From: a virus
Length of the DNA stretch: 29,675 nt
Reading direction: 5' to 3' (one strand)
Virus record (IMG/VR): IMGVR_UViG_3300025889_012404
Span: 1 to 29,675 of that record
Shown here: piece after piece, positions 10,920 to 29,246 of the stretch
How the letters are laid out: every line of letters starts with the position of its first letter
How positions within the stretch are numbered: the first letter of the stretch is position 1
Made by a program: the position numbers and the translations under genes
The notes under the pieces: model-generated
Database searches by the model: none
Seen by the model: the letters and a program-made list of their open reading frames with translations, nothing else
What the model was told of the DNA's origin: nothing

Positions 10920-10927
10920 TTTTACTC

Positions 10928-11587
10928 CTAAATAATTGTATCGTATAATCTGTTTTGTTGTTCTTGTTTTTGAATTTCTTTTTCGTGTTTTAAAGTTAAT
11001 TCTTCGTGTGGTGGTAAATGAGAGTAAGTTTTTGCTCCGTCTATCACCTCGTGAACTGGTTTAACCCATTTAATATCATCGGTGTTTCTAAATATTCTTG
11101 CTTGATAATCTGGAAAGTTAATCCACCCTTGTTCAGTTTGTCTCCAATGCCAAAGATTTAAATGAAAGTCTGTAATACCATTCACGATATTAATTCTTGG
11201 AACCCATATTAAATCTGTATCATTGATTTCTAATATTTGTGGTAATTGTTCTATAAGTATTTTGTTAGGTATTTCATCTGCGTCAATGTGAAATATAAAA
11301 TCTCCTGAACAATGTTCTTTTGTATAGTTTTTTAATTCTGCAAAGTCTTTTTTAAAATTAAATGTAATTACTTTTAAATTTTTAAAATATTCTCCATACT
11401 CATATTTTTCCAATACCTTTTCCAATGCATTAAAGTCATCTTGAACAATACTCTTTTCCCCAACCTTTGAGATATCTCGTGTAACCACGACTTCATCGTC
11501 TTTTCTAATGTGTTTAGAAAGATGAAATAATAAATTATCCAATTCTTTATATTCATTATATACGGTTATTCCATAACTAAGTTTCAT
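10928..11587 (-). CDS. GT2-family glycosyltransferase (WaaE-like)
   Basis: A 219-residue GT-A enzyme. It starts KLSYGITVYNEYKEL, the family-2 opening, and has FHIDADEIP at about 99-107, with D-A-D as the metal-binding triad followed by the E-x-P seen in WaaE/KdtX-type beta-glucosyltransferases. Downstream INFPDYQARIFRN and WVKPVHEVIDG match the conserved W/FPDxQxRxFR and VHE blocks of the same subgroup. The small size is normal for it. It overlaps the upstream unknown gene by 4 bases and is 8 bases from the epimerase gene. It likely transfers a hexose in the glycan pathway; the acceptor is unknown. Confidence 0.88.
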   Translation of the reverse strand: MKLSYGITVYNEYKELDNLLFHLSKHIRKDDEVVVTRDISKVGEKSIVQDDFNALEKVLEKYEYGEYFKNLKVITFNFKKDFAELKNYTKEHCSGDFIFHIDADEIPNKILIEQLPQILEINDTDLIWVPRINIVNGITDFHLNLWHWRQTEQGWINFPDYQARIFRNTDDIKWVKPVHEVIDGAKTYSHLPPHEELTLKHEKEIQKQEQQNRLYDTII

Positions 11588-12084
11588 CGTAAATCCTCAA
11601 TCTTTTTAATCGTTTCATTAATTCTTTTTTTCAATGCTAAGTTATCTTTTGCTTTCTTAGGAAACTTTTGATAACTATCTAATAAAAATACTCTTCTTTT
11701 TCTACACTCTCTTAAAAAGTAAGTTCTAAAGATATCATTTTTCTTTAAAAATCTTTCCAGTAATTTGTAAATGTCTTCTGCTGTATTTTTGTCTGCTCTA
11801 TCTGGGTTATCTCCAACCTCTACAACTCCCTCGTCTAATGTTAATCCACCATAACGAGAAATCAACGTGTTAAAATTTCTAATATCGATTGGTGGTCTTA
11901 ACAATGTGTCTAATTGTAATCCCACTACAAACTCTACGATTCTACCTGTTGACTTTTTTCTATAACGATATTTTGGGTCAATAACCAATATTGTTCTTTG
12001 TTCACCTTTTGATGTTCCTTGTGATTTATAAACAAACCTAACTATTTGTCCTGGTTGTATTTGTTGCCAAGTGGTGTTTCTCAT
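11584..12084 (-). CDS. Hypothetical phage protein with beta-rich N-terminus
   Basis: A 166-residue basic protein, not recognised. Residues 1-60 (starting MRNTTWQQIQPGQIVRFVYK) look like a small beta barrel, possibly SH3- or KOW-like, with RTILVIDPKYRYRKKSTGR in the middle. The rest is helical and very rich in Lys and Arg, with an RECRKRRVF segment and a coiled-coil-like C-terminus. The shape suggests nucleic-acid or virion-component binding, but this is only a guess. It overlaps the zinc-ribbon gene upstream and the GT2 gene downstream by 4 bases each. Confidence 0.6.
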   Translation of the reverse strand: MRNTTWQQIQPGQIVRFVYKSQGTSKGEQRTILVIDPKYRYRKKSTGRIVEFVVGLQLDTLLRPPIDIRNFNTLISRYGGLTLDEGVVEVGDNPDRADKNTAEDIYKLLERFLKKNDIFRTYFLRECRKRRVFLLDSYQKFPKKAKDNLALKKRINETIKKIEDLR

Positions 12085-12536
12085 AAATCTTTAATGATTC
12101 CCATTTCTTTACAAGCATCTAAGAACTCATATTGTCCATATTCTTTTGCATTTTCTAAATCTAATGTGAACTCGTGTCCTTCATATTGTGGGTCTTTTTG
12201 TTCTTCTGGTGTTAACTTACGAACTTCTACTAACTTCCAGTTCCAGTTATTTTTTGTCCCGTCTGGATATATCACTCCTAATTTACCCATATTCAATGTT
12301 GTTGGAATCCAACTAATCTTTCTATCGTAATCAAAAAACACTACATCACGAACCAGTTGTGTTGATTTACTAAGTAAGTTATTAAATACTTCTGAATCTT
12401 TGGTGTATGAAGTATTACTGGTAAACCCACAATTAAAGCACATATATGATTTAAAGTTTTCAATTTGATTGATATCTTCTTCAAAACATTGTTTGTCATT
12501 TAAACAATTTGGACAAGTTATTTTTCTTTCTGCCAT
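12081..12536 (-). CDS. Zinc-ribbon phage protein of unknown function
   Basis: A 151-residue protein whose first 40 residues form a zinc ribbon: C8-x2-C11 (CPNC) and C33-x2-C36 (CFNC) separated by an acidic spacer. The remainder has a WIPTTLNMGKLGVIYPDGTK strand pair and WNWKLVEVRKLTPEE, with no motif I can name. Paired CxxC at the N-terminus suggests binding to nucleic acid or a protein partner. It starts two bases before the stop of the GT-B gene upstream and overlaps the next gene by 4 bases. Confidence 0.65.
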   Translation of the reverse strand: MAERKITCPNCLNDKQCFEEDINQIENFKSYMCFNCGFTSNTSYTKDSEVFNNLLSKSTQLVRDVVFFDYDRKISWIPTTLNMGKLGVIYPDGTKNNWNWKLVEVRKLTPEEQKDPQYEGHEFTLDLENAKEYGQYEFLDACKEMGIIKDL

Positions 12537-12537
12537 T

Positions 12538-13854
12538 TTATACCTTTTTTAGTTTTGGAAGTTTTACATCACTTTTCTTAACCAATTTAGGTAACTTTAA
12601 TGCTACTTCCTGTGGAACACCTTCTAACATTTTATCAACAATAGATATTAATTTCTCTTTCATTTTTTCGTGTGAAAAGTTTTCTCTATTGACTATCATT
12701 TGTTTTTTACCACGAATTTCATACTTTTTGTAGTTTTTGTAAACCTCTTTCAATATCTGAAGTGCTGTTCCGTAGTCTACCGTTGACCAGTATGCTTCTT
12801 GGTTTTGATATTCTTTTGGAAATGCACTATTTGGAACTTTGGTCATTGTGTGTGGTAGTTCAATTGTGTATTCTTTGTCCAAGAAGTCTGCTTGACCTGT
12901 TGAGATTGGTGCTATCAATGGTTTACCACTAAATGTTGCTTCTAACATTGGTCTACCGAATCCCTCTCCGTGTGTAAAGGTTAAATGTGCTTTCACTTTT
13001 GGGTGATTGTACATTTGGTTCATTTCCTCGTCTTTTAAATCTCCGTGCAATAAATAGATTTTAGGTAAGGTTTCTGCTTTCACTTCCTTTTTAATCATAT
13101 CTATTTTTTTCTTCATTTCATTTCTATCCATAACTGAGAAACTTGCACTACTGGTTTTCATAATTAGTGCAGGTGGGTTTTTGGTATTTTTAAATGCTTC
13201 TAAAAATACTTTCAACATCATACCGATGTCTTTTCTATCTTCACCCATATTTCCTTGTAACCAATGTCCTACGAATAGAAAACAAAAGTCTTCTTTGATT
13301 TTATCAAATTCATTTTTTAAATCTATTGTTGCTTCGTTAGTAACTTTATATATTTCTGGGTCTGCTCCTTCAAACAATACTTCTGTTGGTTTTTCCATTT
13401 TTAGTGTTCCAACTTTTTGTCTCGTTTGTTTGTCAATTCTATCAAATGAAGCGTTTTCAAATGATTCTTTACTAAACTCAGATGTAAAGATAGTCATATC
13501 CATACGATTTACACCCTCCACCCAGTCTGCTGGTGGAAGTGTATGTTCAATACCTGCTGTGATTCCGATATTCTTTTTACCTAATGGTTGAAATTCATTT
13601 GGAATTACAATGTGTAAATGTAAGTCTGGTTGTCTATCCATTCTTGGTTCTGGTAGTAATCTTTTGTATATTTCTAAATGATGTGGGTTTTTGTCTTCCA
13701 AAGCATTCATCGGTGTTGCTCCCCAACGAACTGGATTAATCTTAACATCATATTTATCTGATTCGATTAATGCTCTACAAATATCTCTTGAGTGGTTTCC
13801 ATATCCACTACGAGTTCCTACTGGTGCCGTTACTAATACTAATGGTTTGTTCAT
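12538..13854 (-). CDS. GT-B (GT4-like) glycosyltransferase with KLPKL tail
   Basis: A 438-residue two-domain GT-B enzyme. The N-terminal domain opens with a glycine-rich VTAPVGTRSGYGNHSRD loop. The C-terminal donor-binding domain has CFLFVGHW and the E-x7-E signature in HGEGFGRPMLEATFSG, followed by KPLIAP, as in family-4 retaining transferases. The last 19 residues contain two copies of a short peptide (KLPKLVKKSDV then KLPKLKKV). The same peptide opens the neighbouring glycosyltransferase, suggesting a docking tag or a recombination scar. The start overlaps the end of that upstream gene (ATGA). The enzyme probably works in series with it on the same glycan. Confidence 0.85.
   Translation of the reverse strand: MNKPLVLVTAPVGTRSGYGNHSRDICRALIESDKYDVKINPVRWGATPMNALEDKNPHHLEIYKRLLPEPRMDRQPDLHLHIVIPNEFQPLGKKNIGITAGIEHTLPPADWVEGVNRMDMTIFTSEFSKESFENASFDRIDKQTRQKVGTLKMEKPTEVLFEGADPEIYKVTNEATIDLKNEFDKIKEDFCFLFVGHWLQGNMGEDRKDIGMMLKVFLEAFKNTKNPPALIMKTSSASFSVMDRNEMKKKIDMIKKEVKAETLPKIYLLHGDLKDEEMNQMYNHPKVKAHLTFTHGEGFGRPMLEATFSGKPLIAPISTGQADFLDKEYTIELPHTMTKVPNSAFPKEYQNQEAYWSTVDYGTALQILKEVYKNYKKYEIRGKKQMIVNRENFSHEKMKEKLISIVDKMLEGVPQEVALKLPKLVKKSDVKLPKLKKV
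12541..12597 (-). repeat. Two copies of a KLPKL peptide-coding repeat
   Basis: These 57 bases encode the last 19 residues of the 438-residue glycosyltransferase as KLPKLVKKSDV plus KLPKLKKV. A third copy (KLPKLKKVSEV) is encoded at 15246-15278, at the start of the other glycosyltransferase. Codons differ between copies (CTT/TTA, CCA/CCT), so the similarity is at peptide level and not a recent DNA duplication. Confidence 0.6.
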
Positions 13855-15281
13855 ACTTCAAATACCTCATATCTTTTTCTTGGTGTCCACTTTTCAAATG
13901 CAGTTTCCATATGGTCTATAAATAATTGACACATATGTCTTGCTGACATCATTGCTTCATCACTACAAACAAACTCGTGTCCTTTGAATCCACACTCTTT
14001 TCTTTCTTCTGGTGTCATATTGTAGAAATGTTCAATACAATATGATGCGTCAACCCAATCACATCTATCATCAAAAATATATGGTGTTGGTGGTGAACCT
14101 TGTAATGAACGAACTTTTGGCCAAACTGGTTTTACCCACTCTCCGTGAGTTAGTGATTTATTGTTCTCCCACTTTCTCCAATCGTGTAGTGATTCAATGT
14201 CTGCGTAATCTTTGTAAGTTAATAATTCATCACTCAATCTAAATCCACATTGGTCTTGTAAACCACCCGTAACATTAACCACGATTGGTGTTCCTGACAT
14301 TAATGATTCACAAGTTCCTAAACCGAATCCCTCGTTGGATGCCAAGTTAATCGTTACATCACAAATGTTATACAAATAATTTAGATGTTTGTTTTCTAAC
14401 TTTTGTGTTGAAAATATAATGTTCAAGTCTGGACACATTTCTTCAACAACTGCCGGTAAGTCTGTTCCGTTTCCGTCAACTGGTTGTGTATGTAGAACGA
14501 ATGCTGTTTTATTTCTTTTTTCTTTTGGTAGTCTGTATGCAAACTCTCTAAATGCCATAATAGTATCTGATGTCATCTTTCTTCTGATGTTTCTGTTTAC
14601 ATACAACATTGAAAACTCAATGTCTTTTCCTTGAAATAGTTCGTTTTTCATTTTGTTCATTTCCAATCTTTCTTTTTCATCTTTGACTGGATAGAACTGA
14701 GTTTCATTGATTCCGTGTGGTATATAAGTTGAGTCCCAATCTGTTCTTGGTTTATCTTGACAAACATTTTGCACGATGTTGTGTGTTTGTTTCGAGATGT
14801 TCATAATTAAATCACAACTTTCATAATATGGTTGATTCCACATTGGATATGGTAAGTCGTCCCAGATGTTGTAATAAAAAATCGGTATGTGTTGTCTGAT
14901 TTCGTGTTCCATTTGATACAACCAAATCCAAAATCTTGGGTCGGTGTAAATCATAATAGCGTCTGGTTTTTCAATCTGCATTAGTTGTCTTAAAATATCT
15001 GGACTTCCGTATCCATCTACTGGATATATTTTTAGACTTGCGTCCTCGATACCAGTTTCCTTTCTAACATTATCATTCATATCGATAACTTTACCTTGGT
15101 CTGGGTGTTTGATTGCTCCACCGACTTGAACCCAATCATATTTATCAAGAGTTCCCAATACAATCTCTCTTGACATTGTACCGACACCACTTGACATTCT
15201 TAAGTCGTCTGAAAACAATAATATTTTCTTTTTATCTCTTCTTTGAACTTCTGAAACCTTTTTTAATTTTGGTAATTTCAT
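13851..15281 (-). CDS. GT-B (GT4-like) glycosyltransferase with KLPKL head
   Basis: A 476-residue GT-B enzyme. After the leader MKLPKLKKVSEVQRR it has ILLFSDDLRMSSGVGTMSRE, a donor/acceptor-binding glycine loop like that of its downstream neighbour. In the C-terminal half, MLYVNRNIRRK and SNEGFGLGTCESLMSG carry the family-4 E-x7-E motif, with a following TPIVVN strand. The leader repeats the C-terminal peptide of the adjacent transferase. The two enzymes look like distant paralogues that could act consecutively or as a heteromer. A ribbon-helix-helix gene ends 9 bases upstream. Confidence 0.84.
   Translation of the reverse strand: MKLPKLKKVSEVQRRDKKKILLFSDDLRMSSGVGTMSREIVLGTLDKYDWVQVGGAIKHPDQGKVIDMNDNVRKETGIEDASLKIYPVDGYGSPDILRQLMQIEKPDAIMIYTDPRFWIWLYQMEHEIRQHIPIFYYNIWDDLPYPMWNQPYYESCDLIMNISKQTHNIVQNVCQDKPRTDWDSTYIPHGINETQFYPVKDEKERLEMNKMKNELFQGKDIEFSMLYVNRNIRRKMTSDTIMAFREFAYRLPKEKRNKTAFVLHTQPVDGNGTDLPAVVEEMCPDLNIIFSTQKLENKHLNYLYNICDVTINLASNEGFGLGTCESLMSGTPIVVNVTGGLQDQCGFRLSDELLTYKDYADIESLHDWRKWENNKSLTHGEWVKPVWPKVRSLQGSPPTPYIFDDRCDWVDASYCIEHFYNMTPEERKECGFKGHEFVCSDEAMMSARHMCQLFIDHMETAFEKWTPRKRYEVFEV
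15246..15278 (-). repeat. Third KLPKL peptide copy, at an N-terminus
   Basis: Residues 2-12 of the 476-residue glycosyltransferase read KLPKLKKVSEV, matching the C-terminal peptide of the neighbouring transferase in nearly every position. It lies outside the predicted GT-B fold, which starts at ILLFSDD, so it behaves like an appended tag. Confidence 0.6.
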
Positions 15282-17199: not shown

Positions 17200-17630
17200 T
17201 TACCCCTCGCTACTACTTGTGCCATAACTCCATAATTTGATATGTCCGAGAAACTATCTGTTGCTGGTTCGTTGTCAACCGCATTTCCCGTATCTCTCAT
17301 CAATAATGTTTTTAATCTCTCAATTTTGTCATTACATCTGAACCAGATTCCTAACAACGATAATTTAATGTCTTCTGGTGTTTTTAGAATTGTTCCGACT
17401 GCGATGTTTTGTGGGCCGTAATCATATTGTTTTCTACAAAACAATTCATATTGGTCTCGTTGAATCTTTTTAAATTCTGATGTCATTTCAGGATATGTGT
17501 TTTCCATATATCCAACGACATCATCATCTCCGTTAGCATTTCCATATGCTACCTCTACTGGCATACCTTGTGTCGGGTCATATTCTTGACCGACATCATC
17601 AATAACTTTTGTTGGTGCGTCTTTAATCAT
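17187..17630 (-). CDS. DUF1599/Nmad1-like protein
   Basis: A 147-residue protein whose core, YELFCRKQYDYGPQNI then GIWFRCNDKIERLKTLL and ATDSFSDISNYGVMA, matches the DUF1599 pattern: a KxxDYG block, an h-R-x-x-DK-x-x-RL block and an E/D-x-x-x-D-x-x-D-h-x-x-Y block, with acidic residues as in MazG-like helical nucleotide hydrolases. The family is also known as nucleotide modification associated domain 1. It may act on nucleotides or in base-modification pathways. The first 45 residues are acidic and unassigned. It overlaps gp62 by one base. Confidence 0.7.
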   Translation of the reverse strand: MIKDAPTKVIDDVGQEYDPTQGMPVEVAYGNANGDDDVVGYMENTYPEMTSEFKKIQRDQYELFCRKQYDYGPQNIAVGTILKTPEDIKLSLLGIWFRCNDKIERLKTLLMRDTGNAVDNEPATDSFSDISNYGVMAQVVARGKWAK

Positions 17631-18061
17631 TACTTACTCCATATTTTTTTTAGTTGTTTTTCATCTACACCATATTTGGATACGATAGAATATACAACAT
17701 CTTTACCCATAATGTCAAGTGTTTTTTCAATATTTTCTGAACTATCTTCAAAATACTCACATAATATGTCCATAGCCCACTTTTCTATCTTGGATTTTGA
17801 CTTAGATTTAGTATATTTTAAAAAGGTTCTACCCTTTGGTATCACATCTGTGTAGAATTGATATACTGACTTTGGTTCTAATTCCCAATATCTTTGGATT
17901 TCATTTACGACCTCAATCCACTCTGGTTTCATTGATAGAAATCTATGCACCATATAATTTGACCAAGTTTTTTTATCGGCATCAGAAATCTCTTCCCAAT
18001 AATTTGGGTTCTGATTATTTGTAATTTCTTTTATGTGGTCAAATAGTGATTTTGTTTTCAT
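17630..18061 (-). CDS. Small clamp-loader subunit (gp62-like)
   Basis: A 143-residue protein resembling T4 gp62, which joins gp44 to load the sliding clamp. Landmarks are WSNYMVHRFLSMKPEWIEVVN (33-53), matching the FMVxxxLSxFPE block, DVIPKGRTFLKYTK (72-85), matching the VPRGKRYGKWAK block, and an ending EKQLKKIW like the T4 EQKQLKKL region. It is shorter than T4 gp62 (187 residues), which is common in marine relatives. Unlike T4, where gp62 and gp44 are adjacent, here it is separated from gp44 by about 7 kb of unrelated cargo. It has its own upstream gap with a palindrome and promoter-like sequence. Confidence 0.8.
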   Translation of the reverse strand: MKTKSLFDHIKEITNNQNPNYWEEISDADKKTWSNYMVHRFLSMKPEWIEVVNEIQRYWELEPKSVYQFYTDVIPKGRTFLKYTKSKSKSKIEKWAMDILCEYFEDSSENIEKTLDIMGKDVVYSIVSKYGVDEKQLKKIWSK

Positions 18062-18108: not shown

Positions 18109-18736
18109 AATGACAAAAATCTTTGTTTTGTTCGTAAAAGTTTTTTAATTCTTCCCAATTGCCGATGTTTTTAAAATTATCTTCGGTGTTTAATTTTACA
18201 CCTGAAAAGAATCCATACAAGTCTTCATAAAACAATACTCTTGAGTTTCTGTGAGATTTTAGATATTCTATGGTGTTGTTTGTTATTTCTTTGATACCTA
18301 TGATATCTTTTTTTATGTCATCAATTGATATTGTATCGACTTTTATTTTGTTGTATTGTTGTTTTTCTTTTTTCGTTAGAGTTTCCACCCCAAAATCTAC
18401 TGCTCTCCACTTTTCTGTTTTCTTTGCGAGATTTAAAGATAGTGATTGTAAAAATACATTTCTTCTTGACAAAAAGAAAACCATATCGTGATAGTCTATT
18501 ATATCGTTGTGTATTTTTTTCTTAGGATAAACACCAAACTTAATTCCAAAAGTATCATCGTTATCATACATTTTATCAAGAAATTTATCTACACCCATTG
18601 AGTTTATAATCTTTTCCGAGTGATTAAATTCTGGTTCCCATATAAATTTTTTAGATGAAATCTCTTGTAGTGTTTTACAAAACTCAGTTGTTCCACTACG
18701 ACTACAACCCAATACCAATACTTTATTTAAATGCAT
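18098..18736 (-). CDS. Sulfotransferase-like protein
   Basis: A 212-residue P-loop protein. KVLVLGCSRSGTTEF (5-19) is the PAPS 5'-phosphosulfate loop seen in sulfotransferases, and MVFFLSRRNVFLQSLSLNLA (about 85-104) corresponds to the 3'-phosphate block (R-x-x-x-x-x-x-S). A conserved WEPEF lies between them. The protein would transfer sulfate from PAPS to a sugar or tyrosine-like hydroxyl. It overlaps the last of three oxygenase genes by 14 bases and ends the cargo operon. Short length and missing C-terminal GxxG block leave some doubt about activity; a kinase-like P-loop is less likely given GCSRSGTT. Confidence 0.78.
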   Translation of the reverse strand: MHLNKVLVLGCSRSGTTEFCKTLQEISSKKFIWEPEFNHSEKIINSMGVDKFLDKMYDNDDTFGIKFGVYPKKKIHNDIIDYHDMVFFLSRRNVFLQSLSLNLAKKTEKWRAVDFGVETLTKKEKQQYNKIKVDTISIDDIKKDIIGIKEITNNTIEYLKSHRNSRVLFYEDLYGFFSGVKLNTEDNFKNIGNWEELKNFYEQNKDFCHFDL

Positions 18737-19337
18737 TTCCTAACATCCAAGTTAATACTGAATATCTAACACCACGAGTCAATGGTGATACTCTATGTCC
18801 TAAATAAGATGGAAACAAGATAAGACTTCCTTTTTTTCTACTACCGACTGCTGTGTTTTCACCTGTTTTGTCAGTCATACTAAACTCAAAATTTCCTCCG
18901 TCATAGTCATTTTCATCAGACAACTGAACAATGGCAGTAATTTTACGAACTGATGTTTCTTCATTTCCAATGTCTAAATGCCAGTCATATTTTCCTGTGT
19001 CTTCATATCTCAACATACGAACATTAGAAAACTCATTTGCTATGTCAAAATTAAAAAATAATCTATTTGCCATTTCACAAGCCATCATTAAATTTTTATT
19101 TAAATTAAATCCGTCTGACAATACAATTTCTTCTGAAAATCTTACTTCTTGGACTTTACGAACATTTTCATTTACAATGTCTGCTCCGTTTCCATTATAA
19201 GTTCCTGCTACGGTGGCTTTGTATTGTTCTGAATTATCAAACATTTTGATTAACTCATCACACCTTTGTTCAGTCAAGAAGTCATCTTTGTGAACTACAA
19301 ACTTAAAGTTTTTCTTTTGTGTTAGATTTTCTATCAT
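18723..19337 (-). CDS. 2-oxoglutarate/Fe(II) oxygenase 3 (P4H-like)
   Basis: A 204-residue prolyl-4-hydroxylase-like dioxygenase. The iron ligands are His120 and Asp122 in YDWHLDIG and His181 in LGHRVSPL; Arg191 in GVRYSVLTW would bind 2-oxoglutarate. The spacing H-x-D-x58-H-x9-R and the GSLILFPSYLGH block are typical. It is complete and of normal domain length, with the preceding oxygenase overlapping by 4 bases. It likely hydroxylates a protein residue or small molecule; the target is not visible. Tandem position with two relatives suggests duplication. Confidence 0.92.
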   Translation of the reverse strand: MIENLTQKKNFKFVVHKDDFLTEQRCDELIKMFDNSEQYKATVAGTYNGNGADIVNENVRKVQEVRFSEEIVLSDGFNLNKNLMMACEMANRLFFNFDIANEFSNVRMLRYEDTGKYDWHLDIGNEETSVRKITAIVQLSDENDYDGGNFEFSMTDKTGENTAVGSRKKGSLILFPSYLGHRVSPLTRGVRYSVLTWMLGNAFK

Positions 19338-19954
19338 CTAAAATGGTCTCCAATAAATAACTCTTGTAAAACATATCTTATTCCTTTAGTAACTGGTGTT
19401 ACATTGTGAGATAAGAATGTGGGAAATATAGTTAATGAACCTTTTAATTGGTTCATTGTATACCACTCTTTTGTATGTTTATCTTGTATTCCGAACTGAA
19501 CTTCTCCACCCTCGTATTCACTTGGGTCTGTAAGTTGGACAATCGCCACAAGCTTTCTATTAGAGCAACTACCTGCATTAAAATCTGTGTGCCAACCATA
19601 AAAACCTCCTTGATGATACTTGATAAGTTTTAACTCGTCATCTGCTCCGTCTATATCAAAGTGAAATACACCTTGATTTACCATTTTAACTACTTGGTAT
19701 ATTTTATCTTGTAACCATTTCCAATCTCCGTTACAATTATCTGGTCTAAATCTATTATCTGGTTGGTCAAATAAATACCATTCTTCCGTTACTCTTATTT
19801 CTGGTATGATTGCCGCTTCTCCTTTTTCACCACCAACTCCACCCGGAACCATTTGTTCTGTTGTGGTTATTTGTTCTATTAATTCATCACACTTTTCGTG
19901 TGATAAAAATGTAGGTATTTGTATTGAGTATTTAAAGTCATTGTTTAACTTCAT
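19334..19954 (-). CDS. 2-oxoglutarate/Fe(II) oxygenase 2 (P4H-like)
   Basis: A 206-residue dioxygenase closely matching the previous one in layout. Iron ligands are His122 and Asp124 in YGWHTDFN and His183 in LSHNVTPV, and the 2-oxoglutarate Arg is Arg193 in GIRYVLQEL. QLTDPSEYEGGEVQF is the usual strand before the distal His. The sequence between the N-terminal helix (FLSHEKCDELIEQI) and the HxD motif is glycine-rich and differs from its neighbours, so substrate choice may differ. It overlaps both neighbouring oxygenase genes by 4 bases. Confidence 0.92.
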   Translation of the reverse strand: MKLNNDFKYSIQIPTFLSHEKCDELIEQITTTEQMVPGGVGGEKGEAAIIPEIRVTEEWYLFDQPDNRFRPDNCNGDWKWLQDKIYQVVKMVNQGVFHFDIDGADDELKLIKYHQGGFYGWHTDFNAGSCSNRKLVAIVQLTDPSEYEGGEVQFGIQDKHTKEWYTMNQLKGSLTIFPTFLSHNVTPVTKGIRYVLQELFIGDHFR

Positions 19955-20490
19955 TTAAAAGTGTTCCCTTCTGCAAATGTTATTAAAGTGTATCTATCTT
20001 TTTCACTAAATTGTAAAACTTTGTGTGCTGCGAAAGCTGGAAATATAACTATTCTACCTTTTTTTACATCTATGATATTACCCCAAATGTCTAATTGTCC
20101 TCCCTCATAATCGTCATTTAAAAATATAACTGATGTAAGTTTTGTACAAGTGTTTACAACCTTTCCGTCTCCTGCTGCAAAATCTGAGTGATACTCATCA
20201 TCTACGACAAATGTATCTACTGGATATAATTTTCCACAAGAATGTTGAATGCCAGATATATCAAATTTATATACTAATGTATTTGATAAACTGACAACTT
20301 TCCATATTTTATCTATTAAATTTTTGTTTTGAGTTACTACATTTTTACAATTATGTAAACTTCCCCATACAAAATTGTCCGATTTAATATTTTCATCAAT
20401 AGATTTTATTTCGTTATCACATTCTTCTGATGTTAAGAAATTATCTCGAACTAAAAACCATTTAAAATTGTGATTATGTATCAGACTCAT
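19951..20490 (-). CDS. 2-oxoglutarate/Fe(II) oxygenase 1 (P4H-like)
   Basis: A 179-residue dioxygenase, the shortest and most divergent of the three. Iron ligands are His101 and Asp103 in EYHSDFAAG and His156 in FAAHKVLQF, with Arg166 in KDRYTLITF as the 2-oxoglutarate anchor. DNFLTSEECDNEI at the N-terminus matches the helix that opens the other two. The ATG lies inside the last 17 bases of the four-Hint gene, so the oxygenases are translationally coupled to it. This makes the Hint protein a candidate substrate or functional partner. Confidence 0.9.
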   Translation of the reverse strand: MSLIHNHNFKWFLVRDNFLTSEECDNEIKSIDENIKSDNFVWGSLHNCKNVVTQNKNLIDKIWKVVSLSNTLVYKFDISGIQHSCGKLYPVDTFVVDDEYHSDFAAGDGKVVNTCTKLTSVIFLNDDYEGGQLDIWGNIIDVKKGRIVIFPAFAAHKVLQFSEKDRYTLITFAEGNTFK

Positions 20491-23152
20491 CAGAAACTAA
20501 AACCTTATTTGCGAAATAATTAACACCACTATCCGTAGAGTTTATGTTGTATGTTATTTCTTCTTTATTTATAACTTCTATGTGGACTACTTTTAACTTA
20601 TTTAACTCATCAGTCAAAACTACATCTCCTATTTTTAGTGGTCTGTAATCTGAATCTACTTCAGAATCTCCAACGATATAAAATGGGTGGTCATCTGTTG
20701 CTGTGATTGTAGAGTCATCATCAAAAGTATAAGTTACTATATTATCGTGTCTTATCTTTATGACTTCTAAAACTTTTGAGTCCTGAATTTTATTATTCTC
20801 AACATCATATGTTTTTATCATATCACCAGGTCTAACTTTTATGATTGGTTGATATGTTCCGTCTGATAATGTAATCATAGTGTCATAAGTGAAACAAAAT
20901 GAACTATTATGACTAACTATATCGTGTGCTACGATTGTTCCATAGTCTTGATTTAGTAAATTATAAGTGATATGTTTACCCTCAATTTTTTTGATTTCGG
21001 TAATTTCTACCCAACCATCTAAATCTCTTACATAATCTCCAACCTCTACAACACCATTACCACCTGCGTGATTTGGATTGTGTCCGTCAATTGTTGACCA
21101 ACCTTTATCTTTTAATAAGAACGGGTGATTTCCTGTTGGTTTAAGTGTTTGACCAGATTCTAATGTTAATTCATAACAATCATCGTGAAGTTTTTTCATA
21201 ATAGAGTTTACTTTACCTTCTTTAAATTCATTATTTTCTTCATCAAAGACCAATACACTTTCTCCTAATTCTATTTCGTCAATTCTTTTATAATTACCCT
21301 CTCCCATATTAATCACTTGGTCTGGCATAAAGCAGAACTTATTGTGAACCAATACATCATTTGCGAAGTAATTGTGATTTGTTTCTATTTCTAATGAATA
21401 AGTTTGTACTGGATTTATCACTTCATCTAAACCTGTGATTTCTACTTCTCTTAATTCTCCGTTAAAATATTCTAAACATTTATCACCAACTTCTAATTGT
21501 TCTGATTCTATATTGTATCTTTTTTCTGTCCAATTAGGTTTATATGATGACCAACCTTTTCCAATTACCCAATACGGGTGGTCAAACGTGTTTTTGGTTT
21601 TTTTATCACCAAAACTTATTTCTATGATATCAGCGTGAGTTGGTGTTTCGATAGACAATACTTTACCTACTTTAACTTCTTGTGTATCAAAATCATAATT
21701 TTTAACCTCATCTCCGACCTCAATAAATTCTATTGCTTTTGTAGTTCCGTCCCCCATTGTGATTGGTGTTCCTGCTACAAAACATTTTGGTGGAATATTA
21801 TGAACCAAGATATTTGATTGGAAGTATGTATCAATGTCCTCAACATCAAGTGAATACCAAGTAACGTCACCAGAACCCTCAGTTATAGAAGTTATTTCAG
21901 TTTCATTACCACTCGGGTCTAAAAAGTAATCACCTACTTCTATATTGTTTGGTGTTACCCAAGACCAAGTATCTCCTTGTTTTACAAAATATCTAACATC
22001 ATCATTTAATTGTTGTACATTATAAGGTGCTTTGATACTACCATTTATTAGAATATGTCCATAAGACATTGTTTTCATTACATTTACCACAATAGAACCT
22101 TGTGTTGTAGAACCAGATAAATCTGTCGCAGTGTAAGATAAATAATTTTGTGATTCATCTGGCATACCAAGTGGTTGATATGATGTTACGACATCACCAA
22201 CTTCTACATCTTGGACTTGTTTTGTGGTTCCGTCATACATACTGATTAAACTACCACTTGCAGATGTTTTTCCTTGTTGTGATATAAAATTCCAACTATC
22301 TGTATTGGTTGGATTTAATTTAATGAATTTTCCAGCGTCTCTTTCTGCAAAAACTATTACTTTTTCTGGTGTCATCATAAAATCAACTTTACCAACACCT
22401 AAGTATTCTTGTCCGTCTCTATAACTCCCACTATGAACGATGTATTGTTCTATTAAAGAACCATTATCAACTCCATTTTGATAACTTGCACTTGTTGAGT
22501 TGTAAGTGTAGAAACCAACTGCGTTAGACTGAATACTTGAGTCTACTGATGGATTTTTAATAACATAGTCTGGAAAATTATTATTTGGTGTGTAAGAAGA
22601 AGTATTAAACAATGGTATCAATGAAGAACTCATAGGTGAATTACCCAAAATTGTTCTAAATGTATTTTTATTAAAAGAACCACTTACAATGTTTAATAAT
22701 GTATCATCACTATACCAAGGTGTTTCGAAAAATAAATGAAAACTACCTGAATATTGTGCTTGTCCTCTTTGTGAGAAATAAGTATGTGATGTATTCATTT
22801 GATACTCAAATGTTACGGGAATATTATGTCTTGCAAAACTCGAACTAATTAAACCTTGTTGTATATAAGTTGGATTTTGTTTTTTACCTGCCATACCATA
22901 AACAAAACACTTGTCATAACTTTGTGATACTGCATAGTCTGCCATTACATCAAAATAACTTCCTGTTTGCATTGCTGCACTACCAACGATTCCGACATTT
23001 GTATTAAGTTCTACAAATTTTACTTCGTTAGAACCACTTTCTACAATGTAATCCATACCACCAATAATTGCGGCATTAGAAAGTGATGGCCAACCACCTG
23101 CACTTCCTGTTATATGATTGATAAATTCTATTGTTTTTGATTGTACTGACAT
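20474..23152 (-). CDS. Protein with four tandem Hint (intein-like) domains
   Basis: An 892-residue protein. Residues 1-290 form an unassigned head rich in Ser, Thr, Asn and Tyr, like a virion or surface protein; FVELNTNVGIVG (46-57) faintly recalls an ATP-grasp strand, but I would not assign it. Residues 296-892 are four consecutive Hint modules. Modules 2-4 start with Cys457, Cys607 and Cys753 (KCF, FCF, FCF), have T-x-x-H-P (FDHPYW, GNHPFLL, DDHPFYI), and modules 1-3 end with His-Asn (452, 604, 749). Hint domains cleave or splice their own chain via the Cys and the His-Asn. Each domain begins 2-4 residues after the previous His-Asn, leaving almost no extein between them. Start ATG has AGGAAAG upstream. 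Confidence 0.85.
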   Translation of the reverse strand: MSVQSKTIEFINHITGSAGGWPSLSNAAIIGGMDYIVESGSNEVKFVELNTNVGIVGSAAMQTGSYFDVMADYAVSQSYDKCFVYGMAGKKQNPTYIQQGLISSSFARHNIPVTFEYQMNTSHTYFSQRGQAQYSGSFHLFFETPWYSDDTLLNIVSGSFNKNTFRTILGNSPMSSSLIPLFNTSSYTPNNNFPDYVIKNPSVDSSIQSNAVGFYTYNSTSASYQNGVDNGSLIEQYIVHSGSYRDGQEYLGVGKVDFMMTPEKVIVFAERDAGKFIKLNPTNTDSWNFISQQGKTSASGSLISMYDGTTKQVQDVEVGDVVTSYQPLGMPDESQNYLSYTATDLSGSTTQGSIVVNVMKTMSYGHILINGSIKAPYNVQQLNDDVRYFVKQGDTWSWVTPNNIEVGDYFLDPSGNETEITSITEGSGDVTWYSLDVEDIDTYFQSNILVHNIPPKCFVAGTPITMGDGTTKAIEFIEVGDEVKNYDFDTQEVKVGKVLSIETPTHADIIEISFGDKKTKNTFDHPYWVIGKGWSSYKPNWTEKRYNIESEQLEVGDKCLEYFNGELREVEITGLDEVINPVQTYSLEIETNHNYFANDVLVHNKFCFMPDQVINMGEGNYKRIDEIELGESVLVFDEENNEFKEGKVNSIMKKLHDDCYELTLESGQTLKPTGNHPFLLKDKGWSTIDGHNPNHAGGNGVVEVGDYVRDLDGWVEITEIKKIEGKHITYNLLNQDYGTIVAHDIVSHNSSFCFTYDTMITLSDGTYQPIIKVRPGDMIKTYDVENNKIQDSKVLEVIKIRHDNIVTYTFDDDSTITATDDHPFYIVGDSEVDSDYRPLKIGDVVLTDELNKLKVVHIEVINKEEITYNINSTDSGVNYFANKVLVSDESDT
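20477..20896 (-). other. Hint module 4, lacking the terminal Asn
   Basis: Residues 753-892. Cys753 in SFCFTYDTMITLSDG and ATDDHPFYI are present, and NYFANKVLVSDESDT ends the protein without His-Asn. It could form the N-terminal thioester but not carry out Asn cyclisation, as in hedgehog-type C-terminal domains, which pass the upstream chain to a nucleophile. Confidence 0.75.
20906..21334 (-). other. Hint module 3
   Basis: Residues 607-749. Cys607 in KFCFMPDQVINMG, block B as PTGNHPFLL, then VEVGDYVRD, and the end IVAHDIVSHN. The residue after His-Asn is Ser750, the only +1 nucleophile in the array, so this module is the best candidate for true splicing. Confidence 0.8.
21341..21784 (-). other. 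Hint module 2
   Basis: Residues 457-604. It has every expected part: CFVAGTPITMGDGTTK from Cys457, NTFDHPYW with the block B Thr and His, a VGDKC strand, and YFANDVLVHN ending in His603-Asn604. The residue after Asn is Lys, not Cys, Ser or Thr, so it looks like a bacterial intein-like or hedgehog-type domain that cleaves more readily than it splices. Confidence 0.8.
21797..22267 (-). other. Hint module 1 (degenerate)
   Basis: Residues 296-452. GSLISMYDGTTKQVQDVEVGD matches block A downstream of the nucleophile, but the first residue aligns to Thr296 or Ser297 and not Cys, and the T-x-x-H-P block is not evident. The C-terminal block YFQSNILVHN is intact. N-terminal cleavage is probably lost or weak, while Asn-dependent cleavage after residue 452 could remain. 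Confidence 0.65.
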
Positions 23153-24819: not shown

Positions 24820-25048
24820 GACCAGTTCCCTCTAACATCTTTGATGGGACGGTTCCACAATTTCCACAACTAAATACTTGTACTGGAACAATTGCTTCTT
24901 TACCTGTTGGACTCATCAATGCAGATATTTTCTTTAAAAAGAAAGACTGAATAAATGATGCGTTTCCACACTCTTGACATTGAACCGTATCTGCTTTTGA
25001 CATATCTAATTCCACCTGTTTTGGTGGTGCTGGATTTGGATGACTCAT
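24800..25048 (-). CDS. Zinc-ribbon phage protein next to gp44
   Basis: An 82-residue protein with two CxxC knuckles: CQEC at 24-27 and CGNC at 61-64, flanking IQSFFLKKISALMSPTGKEA. Similar small zinc-ribbon proteins occur beside replication genes in T4-like marine phages. The N-terminus is proline-rich. It overlaps the clamp-loader gene by 4 bases, suggesting coupled translation and a job in replication or transcription control. Confidence 0.75.
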   Translation of the reverse strand: MSHPNPAPPKQVELDMSKADTVQCQECGNASFIQSFFLKKISALMSPTGKEAIVPVQVFSCGNCGTVPSKMLEGTGLESTTG

Positions 25049-25968
25049 TTGATACTTCCTATGATTTCTACAAACATAGCCATAATGTTGATTTCTTTAT
25101 CCACTACAACTGCGTCTGATTGTTGATATTTTGATAAAATCAATATACACTCTGCGATATGTCCTGTTCCCCAATCATCAATCGTATCAAACATCAACCT
25201 AAACAAATCCGAAAAGTCTGTAACTTTTGAGTCTGCTAATAATTGTCTAATGTTTTGAAATGATGATTTCTTGTCTTGTGTTTTCAATATATCCAAGACT
25301 TTGGTTTTGTAATCGTTTTGTGTGATTGTGTTTTCATCAATTGTTAATTTACCATTTACAACTTGTCTTTGAGAACCATTGATTACTCGTCTGATATCTG
25401 GATAACCACCATTAACTATGGTTGCGATATCTTTAACATCATACTCAATGTTTTCGTTGTTCAAGATGTTTGCTAAATGTTGTGCGACTTGTTTTCTATC
25501 CGGTGGTATAATCTGAAATGATTGACAACGACTTTGTATCGGGTCAATGATTCTTTCCACATAATTACAAGTCAATATAAAACGACAATTCTTAGAGAAA
25601 GTTTCCATCAAATTACGAAGTGCTGCTTGAGCGTTTGGTGTAATGTAATCACACTCGTCCAAGATAATCACTTTCATATCTTGGAAACCTAATGTTGATG
25701 CGAAGTTCTTTACTTTTTCTCTTACGACATCAACACTATTCTCGTCGGATGCGTTTATGTATAGATAATCACAATCAATATTATTGACCAGTAGTTTGGC
25801 AAGAGTGGTTTTACCAGTTCCTGCCCTACCGAATAAGAGAAGGTGTGGTATATCTCCTGATTCCAAATATACCGACACCTTTGATTTTAAATGGTCATTA
25901 CCGATGTAATTATCTAATTGATTAGGGCGATATTTCTCAACCCAAAGTGAGTGTTTTACACTCTCCAT
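25045..25968 (-). CDS. Sliding-clamp loader ATPase (gp44-like)
   Basis: A 307-residue AAA+ protein of the RFC-small/gp44 type. The Walker A GRAGTGKTT lies at 47-55, Walker B VIILDECD at 100-107, sensor 1 ILTCNY at 131-136 and the family SRC (arginine-finger) motif at 146-148. It begins with HSLWVEKYRPNQLDNYIG, the RFC box II opening. It forms the motor that opens the clamp and places it on primer-template DNA together with gp62. The length matches T4 gp44 (319). The start overlaps the clamp stop by one base. Confidence 0.95.
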   Translation of the reverse strand: MESVKHSLWVEKYRPNQLDNYIGNDHLKSKVSVYLESGDIPHLLLFGRAGTGKTTLAKLLVNNIDCDYLYINASDENSVDVVREKVKNFASTLGFQDMKVIILDECDYITPNAQAALRNLMETFSKNCRFILTCNYVERIIDPIQSRCQSFQIIPPDRKQVAQHLANILNNENIEYDVKDIATIVNGGYPDIRRVINGSQRQVVNGKLTIDENTITQNDYKTKVLDILKTQDKKSSFQNIRQLLADSKVTDFSDLFRLMFDTIDDWGTGHIAECILILSKYQQSDAVVVDKEINIMAMFVEIIGSIK

Positions 25969-26705
25969 TAGTTAACTGCCTGTGTTGATACCAAGAAGTA
26001 TTCTGAATCATAGTTATCGATTGAGAATTTAATTCTTGATAAACCTGCGGAACTAACTTCTAATGTTGCACTTTCACAATCTTTGTTTGCACTTAAGATT
26101 GAAGCGAACATATTTGCATTGAACGAGATTGGTTCAATGTCGGATTGTTTTGTGGTTTCTACTGGAATCGTTACACGATTAGATGCGATTGACGCATAAC
26201 CAATAACGATTTTAGTTTCTCCGTTTTCAGTCAAGATAGTAAAAGTTTCTGCTTCGGATAAAGCACCTTTACCACTAATAAATGTGTTGACAAAATATGG
26301 GTCTACCTTGATACCTAACTCAAATGAATCTGGAAGGTTCTTTAGTGCAGGTGGTGTTGGTATAACTGATAAGTCTGACAACATATATTTAGACTTTGTT
26401 TTTCTTTTTGTATCTTCGAACTCCATTGAAATAAACTTATCTCCTGATTGTGATAGATTTACTTCAATATCATCTCCCAATACTGACAATAATGATGATA
26501 ATTGTCCTGTGTTGTACACACCTAATTCACAAGGTGATAGATGTGAGAACTTACTCAACACTACACTACCCACAACTGACTTATCACCTGAGATAAATCT
26601 TGTTGATAATGAATTGCCGTTTGAAGTCCATTTAGTTGATTTAATTTCTCCACCCAAAGTATATTTTGTGATGAAGTTTGTTAACTGCGATTTGTTCATA
26701 ACCAT
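25968..26705 (-). CDS. Sliding clamp (gp45-like)
   Basis: A 245-residue processivity clamp, slightly longer than T4 gp45 (228). It lacks sharp motifs, as clamps do; the evidence is the length, the repeated two-domain beta pattern, the conserved SKYMLSDLSVIPTPP linker region, the YFLVSTQAVN C-terminal strand and the position between polymerase and clamp loader. A strong Shine-Dalgarno (AGGAGTAA) lies just before the first ATG; a second ATG two codons later has better spacing and could be the real start. The clamp tethers the polymerase and, in T4, also activates late transcription. Confidence 0.88.
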   Translation of the reverse strand: MVMNKSQLTNFITKYTLGGEIKSTKWTSNGNSLSTRFISGDKSVVGSVVLSKFSHLSPCELGVYNTGQLSSLLSVLGDDIEVNLSQSGDKFISMEFEDTKRKTKSKYMLSDLSVIPTPPALKNLPDSFELGIKVDPYFVNTFISGKGALSEAETFTILTENGETKIVIGYASIASNRVTIPVETTKQSDIEPISFNANMFASILSANKDCESATLEVSSAGLSRIKFSIDNYDSEYFLVSTQAVN

Positions 26706-26762: not shown

Positions 26763-29246
26763 TTAAAAGAACCTACTCATTGATGTTGTTGTGTCCTCTA
26801 CTCCACCCCAGTCTAATGCTTTGTAAAACATACCAACCTTTTTACTCATAGCTTGTTCATACATTTTGTTATGGTCAATGTAGTTTTTAATTAATTCTAA
26901 AATCTGTGGTGGGTCTTCATAACCTTTGTAAGCTATGGTATCGAATCCAAACTCATTTTCTTTTAAATACACCCACTTGATTTTGTTTCCATTGGTAATC
27001 TTGGAATATCTTTTACCCTCATACCAATAATCAATCAGAGAATTATAATTAATTGCTGCTTTAACGTGAACTGGTGTTCCTTTTTTATACTGAGAAAATG
27101 CGCTTTCAGAATCCTTAACTTCATACTTTCCAATACCTTTTACACCGATTGGATTTGCCATAACATCATAATGTAATGAAGTCATATTTCTTTTAAATAC
27201 TGATATTCTTTCATCAATCTTTTCTTTTGGAACATCTGCCAAAATATCATCTAATACTTTTTGTAGTAAGTCTTTCATAGCGACTGCGAAATTACTTCTA
27301 ATGGTATCCAATCCTTTTACATGCGTTTTGTTTACTTTTCTACCCGCATCATTTATGATTCGTAATCCATATCTTTTCTTTGTAATGAACAATCCTGTTT
27401 TTGCTACCACCTCTTGTTTAATATCAAATACATGCTTGTCTACATTACAAAATTTCTTACCGAAGTAATCATATGATTTATTTAAAAAGTCTTGTACTTC
27501 CGCACATATCTCCATAATTCTTTGTGTCATCATTGTTTCGGTTAGTTCTTGATTAGGGAATCGTTTCTCAATCAATGGAACTGCCGACGCAAAAATAGAG
27601 TCAGTATCGATATAGATAACATAATCGTCGGCTGTTCCGAGTTCTTTATTGTAAAAGTGATTAGTAATTTTTTTACTGAATTTAATTAATTGTTGTCCTG
27701 TTGTGGTGGTGGCTTCTGCATTATCCAAATCATAAAATCTAAATACTGGTAATCCCAATACTCCGTACAACGAGTTCAATACAATCTTTTGAATGTGTTG
27801 TCTTCTATCGAAGTATTGTTCTTTTTCTTTATCACCTTGTTCGTGGAACTTCTTAACAAGTTTTCTCATCTCGACTCTTTCATTGAACCATTTTTCTAAT
27901 AGTGCCGGAATCAATCCTTGTTTGTCTGTTCGATAAATAATACCATTAGAACTAATCGATACATCTGCTTCGTCCAGATATTGTTGTAGTTCTGGTTTAG
28001 TCATCTTACCCATTTCCTTACCTTTTTTATTTAACATTGTGTAAGTTTTCTGAGTTTTGTTATTGATGAATTCTTCCTCGTTCCAACCCGTAACTTTACC
28101 GACTTTAGTTTCTGGTGAAATGTTCAATGAACGAATCACACTCGGATACATTGATGTGATGTCCAAGTCATAAACCCATTTGTGTTTTCCTGCTTGTGGT
28201 TCTTGAACATAAGCACCTGTGAACTTATCATCATTTAATTTCTTTGGTCTTGGTGGTTTGTTAGGTGCCACAACCCCAATCTTTTTTAGATAAACTAATA
28301 TCGCTCCCTCTAACCAACGACTCGACATATTGATATCTTCATAAGGAACATGCCCTAAGTGAGCAATACCACGAGCAATCTCAATAAAATCTAATTTTTT
28401 GTCCAATTCAACCAAGATTTTTACATCTCGAATATTGTAATCAATAAATGTTTGTAAATCATTATCGTATAAATCATTTAGTGTTCCTGTATAATCAACC
28501 TTTTTCATACCGACTTCTACTTCTCCGATATAATCTAATCGATAACTTGATTGTTGAGTAAATGTAAATTGTCTATATAGTTGTAAATAATCTAATGATG
28601 AAACACCAGCTATTGTGTGTTTCTTTTTATATTCTGAATAAATAACTTGTGAAATCGGTGATAAAAGGTTTGCCACTTCTGGGCCCAATACCCTAACCGC
28701 TCTATTATACAAATAAGGAATATCAAAGAACTCCGAGTTCCAACCACTAATAATCGTAGGTCTGATTTCTAAATACTTTTGGAAAAACTGATTTAACATC
28801 TCGTATTCAGTTTCATATATTTCTACAACTTGGTCGTCTTTGGTATAACTTTTTAGTCTGTTTTTTGGGTCAAATACATAAGTGTAATACTTTTCTGAAA
28901 CACTATCATATAGTGCGATTGATGTGATTGGGTTTTGTGCTTTCATCACATCTGGGAATCCCTCAGTTACCTCTACCTCGATATCAAAGAACATAATTCT
29001 ATGACCTGTGGATGCTTCATCTGAATCTCCGTATTGGTCTACTAAAAATCTTGTCATTGGTGGTACATCTGATTCGTGAAGTGTTGGGTCGTCTTTGTCG
29101 AATTGTGTAACTTTCTTTAATCTATCTCCGTATAAAGAAACGTGTTGTCCACTTGGGTGTTTGACATATGCATATTTTCTAAATGGGATTTCTAAATGTC
29201 CACGCTTGTCGTCCCAAATGTGCATTTTCATTTTCTTTATGTCCAA
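26763..29246 (-). CDS. Family B DNA polymerase (gp43-like)
   Basis: A replicative polymerase of 827 residues with 3'-5' proofreading. Exonuclease motifs are FFDIEVEV (Asp88, Glu90), WNSEFFD (about 169-175) and YNIRDV (about 270-275). Polymerase motifs are DLDITSMYPS (A), KIVLNSLYG (B) and YIDTDS (C). It ends TTSMSRFF, a plausible clamp-binding tail. T4 gp43 has 898 residues with its first exonuclease Asp at 112, so the N-terminal domain here is shorter. The frame opens at TTG (29244-29246); ATGs follow at residues 6 and 8. None has a well-spaced Shine-Dalgarno, since the AAGGAG is about 22 bases before the TTG. No intein or split is seen. Confidence 0.96.
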   Translation of the reverse strand: MDIKKMKMHIWDDKRGHLEIPFRKYAYVKHPSGQHVSLYGDRLKKVTQFDKDDPTLHESDVPPMTRFLVDQYGDSDEASTGHRIMFFDIEVEVTEGFPDVMKAQNPITSIALYDSVSEKYYTYVFDPKNRLKSYTKDDQVVEIYETEYEMLNQFFQKYLEIRPTIISGWNSEFFDIPYLYNRAVRVLGPEVANLLSPISQVIYSEYKKKHTIAGVSSLDYLQLYRQFTFTQQSSYRLDYIGEVEVGMKKVDYTGTLNDLYDNDLQTFIDYNIRDVKILVELDKKLDFIEIARGIAHLGHVPYEDINMSSRWLEGAILVYLKKIGVVAPNKPPRPKKLNDDKFTGAYVQEPQAGKHKWVYDLDITSMYPSVIRSLNISPETKVGKVTGWNEEEFINNKTQKTYTMLNKKGKEMGKMTKPELQQYLDEADVSISSNGIIYRTDKQGLIPALLEKWFNERVEMRKLVKKFHEQGDKEKEQYFDRRQHIQKIVLNSLYGVLGLPVFRFYDLDNAEATTTTGQQLIKFSKKITNHFYNKELGTADDYVIYIDTDSIFASAVPLIEKRFPNQELTETMMTQRIMEICAEVQDFLNKSYDYFGKKFCNVDKHVFDIKQEVVAKTGLFITKKRYGLRIINDAGRKVNKTHVKGLDTIRSNFAVAMKDLLQKVLDDILADVPKEKIDERISVFKRNMTSLHYDVMANPIGVKGIGKYEVKDSESAFSQYKKGTPVHVKAAINYNSLIDYWYEGKRYSKITNGNKIKWVYLKENEFGFDTIAYKGYEDPPQILELIKNYIDHNKMYEQAMSKKVGMFYKALDWGGVEDTTTSMSRFF

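Follow-up and report, generated by a model that had tools for sequence, protein, structure and literature searches.

A predicted ATP-grasp-like phage protein with a candidate self-processing tail of four tandem Hint modules

Hint domains are familiar mostly as single inteins, as the tails of Hedgehog proteins, or as bacterial intein-like (BIL) domains. One BIL domain, BIL2 of the BUBL1 protein of Tetrahymena, couples its N-terminal flank to a lysine in its C-terminal flank via an isopeptide bond (PMC8616854). We found no report of tandem Hint arrays in phages in the openly accessible literature. Here, we describe such an array from an uncultured T4-like phage, in a 29.7-kb virus record of IMG/VR (IMGVR_UViG_3300025889_012404, all 29,675 nucleotides of which are hereafter called the window). 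An open reading frame (ORF) with an ATG start, lying within a run of same-strand phage genes, encodes a head followed by four Hint modules, M0, M1, M2, and M3 (Table 1). We give roughly even chances to the reading that this is a phage protein whose head is ATP-grasp-like and whose C-terminal tail, made of four modules of separate ancestry, processes itself. The first-pass annotation of this DNA had described four tandem Hint modules spaced by 2–4 residues, the first without its Cys and the last without its Asn. The translated ORF bears this out: the Cys nucleophiles (457, 607, and 753) and the His-Asn ends (452, 604, and 749) lie exactly where they had been placed, the linkers count 4 (M0/M1, IPPK), 2 (M1/M2, KF), and 3 (M2/M3, SSF) residues, and the last module ends in Ser887-Asp888, followed by ESDT and the stop codon. 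A Ser after the Asn is found in a single module, as claimed, and this is M2 (the third in order).

The Hint assignment is beyond chance. The whole protein matches the Pfam families Intein_splicing (E-value 2e-18), PT-HINT (6e-17), and Hint (8e-17), and the NCBIfam family intein_Nterm (6e-17). Profile searches of each module and structure prediction had been proposed as checks of the annotation, and both agree with it. Curated intein cut-offs are exceeded by M1 alone for TIGR01443 (22.9 vs 15.6 bits) and by M2 (28.9 bits) and M3 (39.4 bits) alone for TIGR01445 (cut-off 24.5 bits); M0 alone reaches none (PT-HINT match at 2.8e-4). A sequence search of the PDB retrieved the BIL domain of C. thermocellum (2lwy, 2e-10) and BUBL1 BIL2 (~5e-10). 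The same two domains are the nearest structures, by Foldseek, of the AlphaFold2 (AF2) model of the full chain, which is good in M3, fair in M1 and M2, and poor in the head: BIL2 (6y75) matches with a template modelling (TM) score of 0.88 and 2lwy with 0.87, at E-values down to 2e-11, followed by many inteins and the Hedgehog domain. A second AF2 model, of head and M0, was built from 41 sequences (predicted local distance difference test 76, predicted TM score 0.77), and there M0 has the same Hint fold (TM 0.77 to 2lwy). A polymorphic-toxin reading of the PT-HINT match is ruled out, as no toxin or other domain follows M3.

We searched viral contigs with the protein and with an alignment of the head and found more than 100 loci (designated L with a number), from which 88 distinct proteins were parsed. 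Their architectures are M0-M1-M3 (23 proteins), M0-M3 (22), M0-M1-M2-M3 (16), M0-M1-M2 (14), M0-M1-M2-X (3), other arrangements (2), and M0 with no appended module parsed (8, a few of which are cut by the contig end). The relatives thus span everything from M0 alone to the full array on the same head. True M0-only chains stop after ILVHN-IPPK, IPQK, IPKR, LPKR, or IPGKE. Chains that carry M1 continue as IPPK-Cys, so that release at Cys457 would leave head-M0-IPPK, the very chain that the M0-only phages encode directly. When M2 is absent, M1 and M3 are joined by K-SSF-C, K-GSF-C, and the like; when it is present, the order reads KF-M2-SSF-C. Searches of cultured phages and of GTDB genomes yielded no member of the head family.

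Each position of the array has a signature of its own. We counted these over distinct sequences (25–71 per module type); since modules were classed partly by their end motifs, the counts are descriptive and partly circular, that of the M0 His-Asn most of all. M0 lacks Cys1 and TxxH and ends in His-Asn in 71/71 sequences, and among 181 matches the M0-end pattern failed in only one full-length head relative (L178). Cys1, the block-B His, and the His-Asn of M1 are each present in 45/45. The residue that follows (+1) is Lys in 46/46, while +2 varies (F, G, I, S, D, L). The M1 end pattern included a look-ahead to Lys, Glu, or Ser, and the sole M1-type stretch that it left unsplit (L083/L084) likewise carries Lys at +1. 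In the window, M1 keeps the Thr of TxxH (TFDH); some relatives have another residue there, such as L040 with NVADHP. M2 has Cys1 and His-Asn in 25/25, together with TxxH, and is followed by Ser (23) or Thr (2). M3 has Cys1, TxxH, and a terminal Ser-Asp in 48/48. By these features, M1 corresponds to A-type BIL domains (block-B His, +1 other than Cys, Ser, or Thr), M2 to class 1 inteins, and M3 to B-type BIL domains or the Hedgehog Hog-Hint, which keep the thioester half of the chemistry and lack the C-terminal Asn.

We compared the window with five relatives and obtained ratios of nonsynonymous to synonymous substitutions (dN/dS) of 0.04–0.29 across every domain, M3 and M0 (0.05–0.29) included; these values are rough, as several comparisons had a dS close to 1 or higher. 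Because the signatures are fixed by position and dN/dS is low, the ‘graded defects’ of the first-pass annotation are better described as stable features than as decay. All modules appear to be under purifying selection, a decaying intein array is ruled out, and instead of a remnant in decay we appear to have a maintained device for self-processing. Conservation could also be structural, the Hint fold and its residues being kept for stability or for binding a metal or a partner, without any cleavage. M0, conserved despite lacking Cys1 and TxxH, fits this, as do the M0-only proteins that end just past His-Asn. It fits M1 and M2 poorly: Cys1, the block-B His, and His-Asn are invariant there while some 60–70% of the columns vary, and relatives of M2 lie inside repeat proteins, where failure to be removed would break a repeat. 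We therefore find a purely structural role improbable.

The four modules seem to be separate, old lineages. In a tree of 69 modules, M0, M1, M2, and M3 are each monophyletic (support 100/98-99), and tandem duplication of one module is ruled out by these four distinct clades. The M2 clade also includes modules of other proteins (L142, L143, L192, L193, and L195), and the M1 clade includes one module of L192. Module identity follows head identity closely for M0 (r 0.90–0.97), less so for M1 (0.62), and least for M3 (0.41), which suggests that M0 was inherited with the head and that M1 and M3 were shuffled. The exchange can be seen at the DNA level. Three phage pairs share an M3 core that is 93–99% identical between flanks that are mostly 45–85% identical, with sharp edges at the start of M3 and at the stop codon, i.e., M3 moves between phages as a sharply bounded DNA cassette. 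The window and L010 encode identical proteins (100%) through M0; nearly all 75-base steps of their DNA are 100% identical as far as the middle of M1, beyond which the two diverge, and L010 has no M3. A short M3 remnant, downstream start codon included, lies 3' of the stop codon in L024. The array is thus built, exchanged, and trimmed by whole modules between phages.

Such mobility is what one expects under the main rival explanation, in which the appended modules are mobile intein or BIL cassettes that remove themselves or are harmless at a C-terminus, array length and order having no function for the phage. The sharp-edged exchange of M3, the insertion of the M2 lineage in several unrelated proteins, the different array lengths on an identical head and M0, and the L024 remnant all agree with it. 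Hitchhiking cassettes explain less well that no module contains a homing endonuclease domain, that M1 is always followed by Lys at +1 while +2 varies, that neither M1 nor M2 varies in its catalytic residues, and that the divergent L192 has its modules in the same M0-M1-M2 order. We consider this explanation unlikely, even if it is the strongest of the alternatives.

Tandem Hints with tiny linkers recur in these viruses. L192 (1,093 aa) has a head related to that of the window (hhalign E-value 4.6e-5, probability 68%, single comparison), followed by an M0-like, an M1-like (+1 Lys), and an M2-like module (+1 Ser), and then by a repeat domain. When the flanks of its M2-like module are joined on paper, they read GRQN-SSRRN, which by eye resembles another repeat of the protein (GGQN-SGFRDN), and L143 is similar, again by eye. 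Directly upstream of the ATP-grasp-like/Hint gene of L192 lies a peptidase C39-like gene (1461-2039), an arrangement that recalls peptide-natural-product clusters. L193 and L195 are S/T/Y-rich repeat proteins of ~1,480 aa with an M0-like and an M2-like module at the end, and M2-like modules in unrelated contexts retain the +1 Ser/Thr. In L248 (contig IMGVR_UViG_3300035698_015035; 1063-1515 and downstream), an ORF of 367 aa contains two Hints joined by one Lys, the first M1-like and the second without His-Asn, on the same plan as M1-M3 with a different head. In L252 (contig IMGVR_UViG_3300032083_000683; 5001-5921), two Hints separated by a single Arg are inserted in a VrlC-like virion protein, immediately ahead of the conserved DPLAQ[TS]F of VrlC, with Lys at +1; once joined, the flanks give a query that 1157 phage records match over 80% or more of its length, a few additional residues being left at the junction. 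A stand-alone Hint-like protein of 153 aa without Cys1 (L125, 5398-5859; phage NCTB BN7874_135) adjoins a tail protein with its own C-terminal Hint.

The first-pass annotation had suggested that the array might ligate a ‘surface-like’ head to something or crosslink virions. In a crosslinking scheme, the thioester of M3 or M1 would be attacked by a Lys of virion or host-surface proteins, and the head would become covalently attached as in BUBL. The lysine conjugation by BUBL1 BIL2, one of the nearest structures (PMC8616854), M3 as a thioester-only module without His-Asn, and the tandem pair in VrlC could all be accommodated. However, the head is not virion-like: it matches no surface or adhesin family, its model is ATP-grasp-like, no relative in a cultured phage marks it as structural, and the gene lies in a replication region and not among virion genes. 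Crosslinking is thus not supported for this protein, where we hold it to be very unlikely, and the VrlC pair, in another phage contig, keeps a virion role from being absurd for the wider class.

The head has no family match by sequence in Pfam, PHROGs, or the PDB. With the head-M0 model, Foldseek retrieves YgiC (7uka) at an E-value of 2.2e-6 and a probability of 1.00, yet with a TM of only 0.31–0.37, and many glutathione synthetases (E-values 1e-5 to 1e-3, probability near 1, TM ~0.3). Motifs of the head and YgiC follow each other in the same order by eye: NEVKFVELN/GEPKLLENN, TPW/YPW, NK/NK, YVIK/YVVK, and EQYI/QQF. Comparisons by sequence with YgiC and with eight phage homologues are not significant (local alignment z ~1; hhalign E-value 0.25–0.6), and the GSP_synth profile (PF03738) does not match the head in its own record (hhalign E-value ~0.5). 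We therefore dropped the ATP-grasp assignment at the level of sequence and retained it at that of the fold, where the model resembles peptide ligases of the YgiC/glutathione-synthetase type and an ATP-grasp reading is fairly likely. Peptide-spermidine ligase activity is described for YgiC and YjfC (Pederick et al. 2023, as cited in PMC12568646). Many T4-like phages of Aeromonas and Acinetobacter carry GSP-synthase genes.

From the observed fold, residues, conservation, module series, and cassette exchange, together with published intein and BIL chemistry (PMC7765530, PMC5874633), we infer a chemistry for each module and a role for the array. M0 would be an old domesticated Hint, passed on together with the head, that no longer performs the N-terminal half of the chemistry and at most cleaves after Asn452. 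M1, M2, and M3 would be active and specialised. M2 most likely excises itself by splicing and thereby links KF to SSF. M1 most likely forms a thioester at Cys457 and then either cuts at both of its ends or transfers the upstream chain to an amine of Lys605. Given the isopeptide bond that BUBL1 BIL2 makes to a lysine, this invariant +1 Lys is the most interesting residue of the array. M3, with Cys753 and TxxH and without His-Asn, most likely activates the preceding chain for release or for transfer to another nucleophile. The beads-on-a-string array of the first-pass annotation stands, as do the intact catalytic residues of its middle modules, and the self-cleavage it proposed is plausible as a prediction from these residues. 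A more elaborate scheme, which we put forward as a long shot, is multi-step covalent assembly: M2 would splice, M1 would place the head onto Lys605 by a peptide or isopeptide bond, M3 would hand the chain to an outside amine, and phages would change what is attached by swapping cassettes; VrlC and other viral proteins would work on the same principle.

Several points weigh against a self-processing tail on an ATP-grasp-like protein, besides the partial circularity of the signature counts. The ATP-grasp assignment comes from comparing folds, at low TM scores, and sequence matches are not significant. Conservation of His-Asn does not by itself imply cleavage, as M0-only relatives keep it where C-terminal cleavage would free only ~4 residues. 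A nucleophilic role for the +1 Lys is predicted by analogy with BUBL BIL2. Finally, overlap with the start codon of the next gene accounts in part for the constancy of the M3 end (+1 Glu and tail) and so weakens it as a sign of function. The ATG of this oxygenase gene is formed by the final codon of M3 together with one further base (gATGAg), an overlap found in 38/39 distinct M3 ends, which probably couples translation and constrains the end of the array. The Asp in place of Asn is not forced by the overlap, because X modules end in Asn (aATGAG) with the overlap kept.

Such an array would make ordered multi-module self-processing testable and supply natural parts for cleavage and ligation. 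It offers a large natural series of one to four modules on the same head, each position with a different half of the chemistry, as well as a case of intein-like modules moving without an endonuclease of their own; the invariant Lys after M1 could, by the BUBL analogy, give isopeptide bonds.

The Hint gene sits between those of gp44 and gp62, among T4-like replication genes. The polymerase of the window is 44% identical to its nearest cultured counterpart, that of Microcystis phage Mel-JY01. A GNAT gene precedes the Hint gene; after it come three 2OG-Fe(II) oxygenase genes and one gene with weak similarity to sulfotransferases. The three consecutive oxygenases (18723-20490) have diverged, and their number and order differ among relatives. 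Sugar-nucleotide genes and glycosyltransferases occupy another part of the window (8450-15281).

Table 1. Positions of the array, its parts, and other genes in the window.
Feature	Residues	Position	Strand	Remarks
Whole gene		20474-23152	(-)	892 aa; ATP-grasp-like head (predicted), then Hint modules M0-M1-M2-M3
Head	1-294	22271-23152	(-)	predicted ATP-grasp-like fold (YgiC / glutathione synthetase); invariant E48, N50, P145, K162, K199, E235
M0	297-452	21797-22264	(-)	degenerate Hint without Cys1 and TxxH; C-terminal His451-Asn452 intact
Linker IPPK	453-456	21785-21796	(-)	natural C-terminus of M0-only relatives L102 and L107
M1	457-604	21341-21784	(-)	A-type-BIL-like Hint; Cys457, TFDH, His603-Asn604, +1 Lys605 (family-invariant)
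Linker KF	605-606	21335-21340	(-)	
M2	607-749	20906-21334	(-)	mini-intein-like Hint; Cys607, TGNH, His748-Asn749, +1 Ser750
Linker SSF	750-752	20897-20905	(-)	
M3	753-888	20489-20896	(-)	Cys753 and TDDH intact; ends in Ser887-Asp888; DNA cassette exchanged between phages
Tail ESDT, stop codon, and overlapping ATGA start of next gene		20474-20490	(-)	
2OG-Fe(II) oxygenase, first neighbour		19951-20490	(-)	start codon inside last codons of M3 region
2OG-Fe(II) oxygenase		19334-19954	(-)	
2OG-Fe(II) oxygenase		18723-19337	(-)	
gp62, clamp loader		17630-18061		
gp44, clamp loader		25045-25968		
gp45, clamp		25968-26705		
gp43, polymerase		26763-29246		
Cytidylyltransferase fused to HMGL-like domain		8450-10072		
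NAD-dependent epimerase		10065-10919		
Two glycosyltransferases		12538-15281		

The array is real and unusual, is part of a wider phenomenon, and represents a new arrangement of known domain types. The head resembles YgiC/YjfC ligases and glutathione synthetases in predicted fold and, by eye, in the order of its E-x-N, PW, NK, and VIK motifs; unlike them, it is shorter (~294 aa), has no significant sequence or profile match, and is fused to Hint modules. Tail proteins of jumbo phages (NCTB BN7874_132/136, Erwinia Y3_110, Yersinia fHe-Yen9-02 333c) share an M0-like C-terminal Hint with His-Asn near the stop codon, but have a single module and no array, retain Cys1 in the examples read, and carry collagen- or Ig-like heads. 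M3 keeps the N-terminal thioester half, as do B-type BIL domains and the Hedgehog Hog-Hint, and like them lacks the C-terminal His-Asn; it differs in having Ser-Asp in that place and no sterol-recognition region, the chain ending four residues on. M2 is built like a class 1 mini-intein (Cys1, TxxH, His-Asn, +1 Ser/Thr, 143–144 aa, no endonuclease), and splicing is predicted for it, but such inteins are sited in conserved enzyme motifs, whereas M2 stands between two Hint modules. The A-type BIL domains of C. thermocellum (2lwy) and Tetrahymena BUBL1 (BIL2, 6y75/6tmm) are alike in fold (TM 0.87–0.88), Cys1, and block-B His, and share with M1 the C-terminal His-Asn and a +1 residue other than Cys, Ser, or Thr. 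The phage protein differs from them in the invariant +1 Lys after M1 and in having no ubiquitin-like flanks of the BUBL type, its Pfam scan yielding Hint-type families only. Above all, the A-type structures are single domains, whereas the phage protein strings together four modules that appear to be of different lineages, with 2–4 residues between them.

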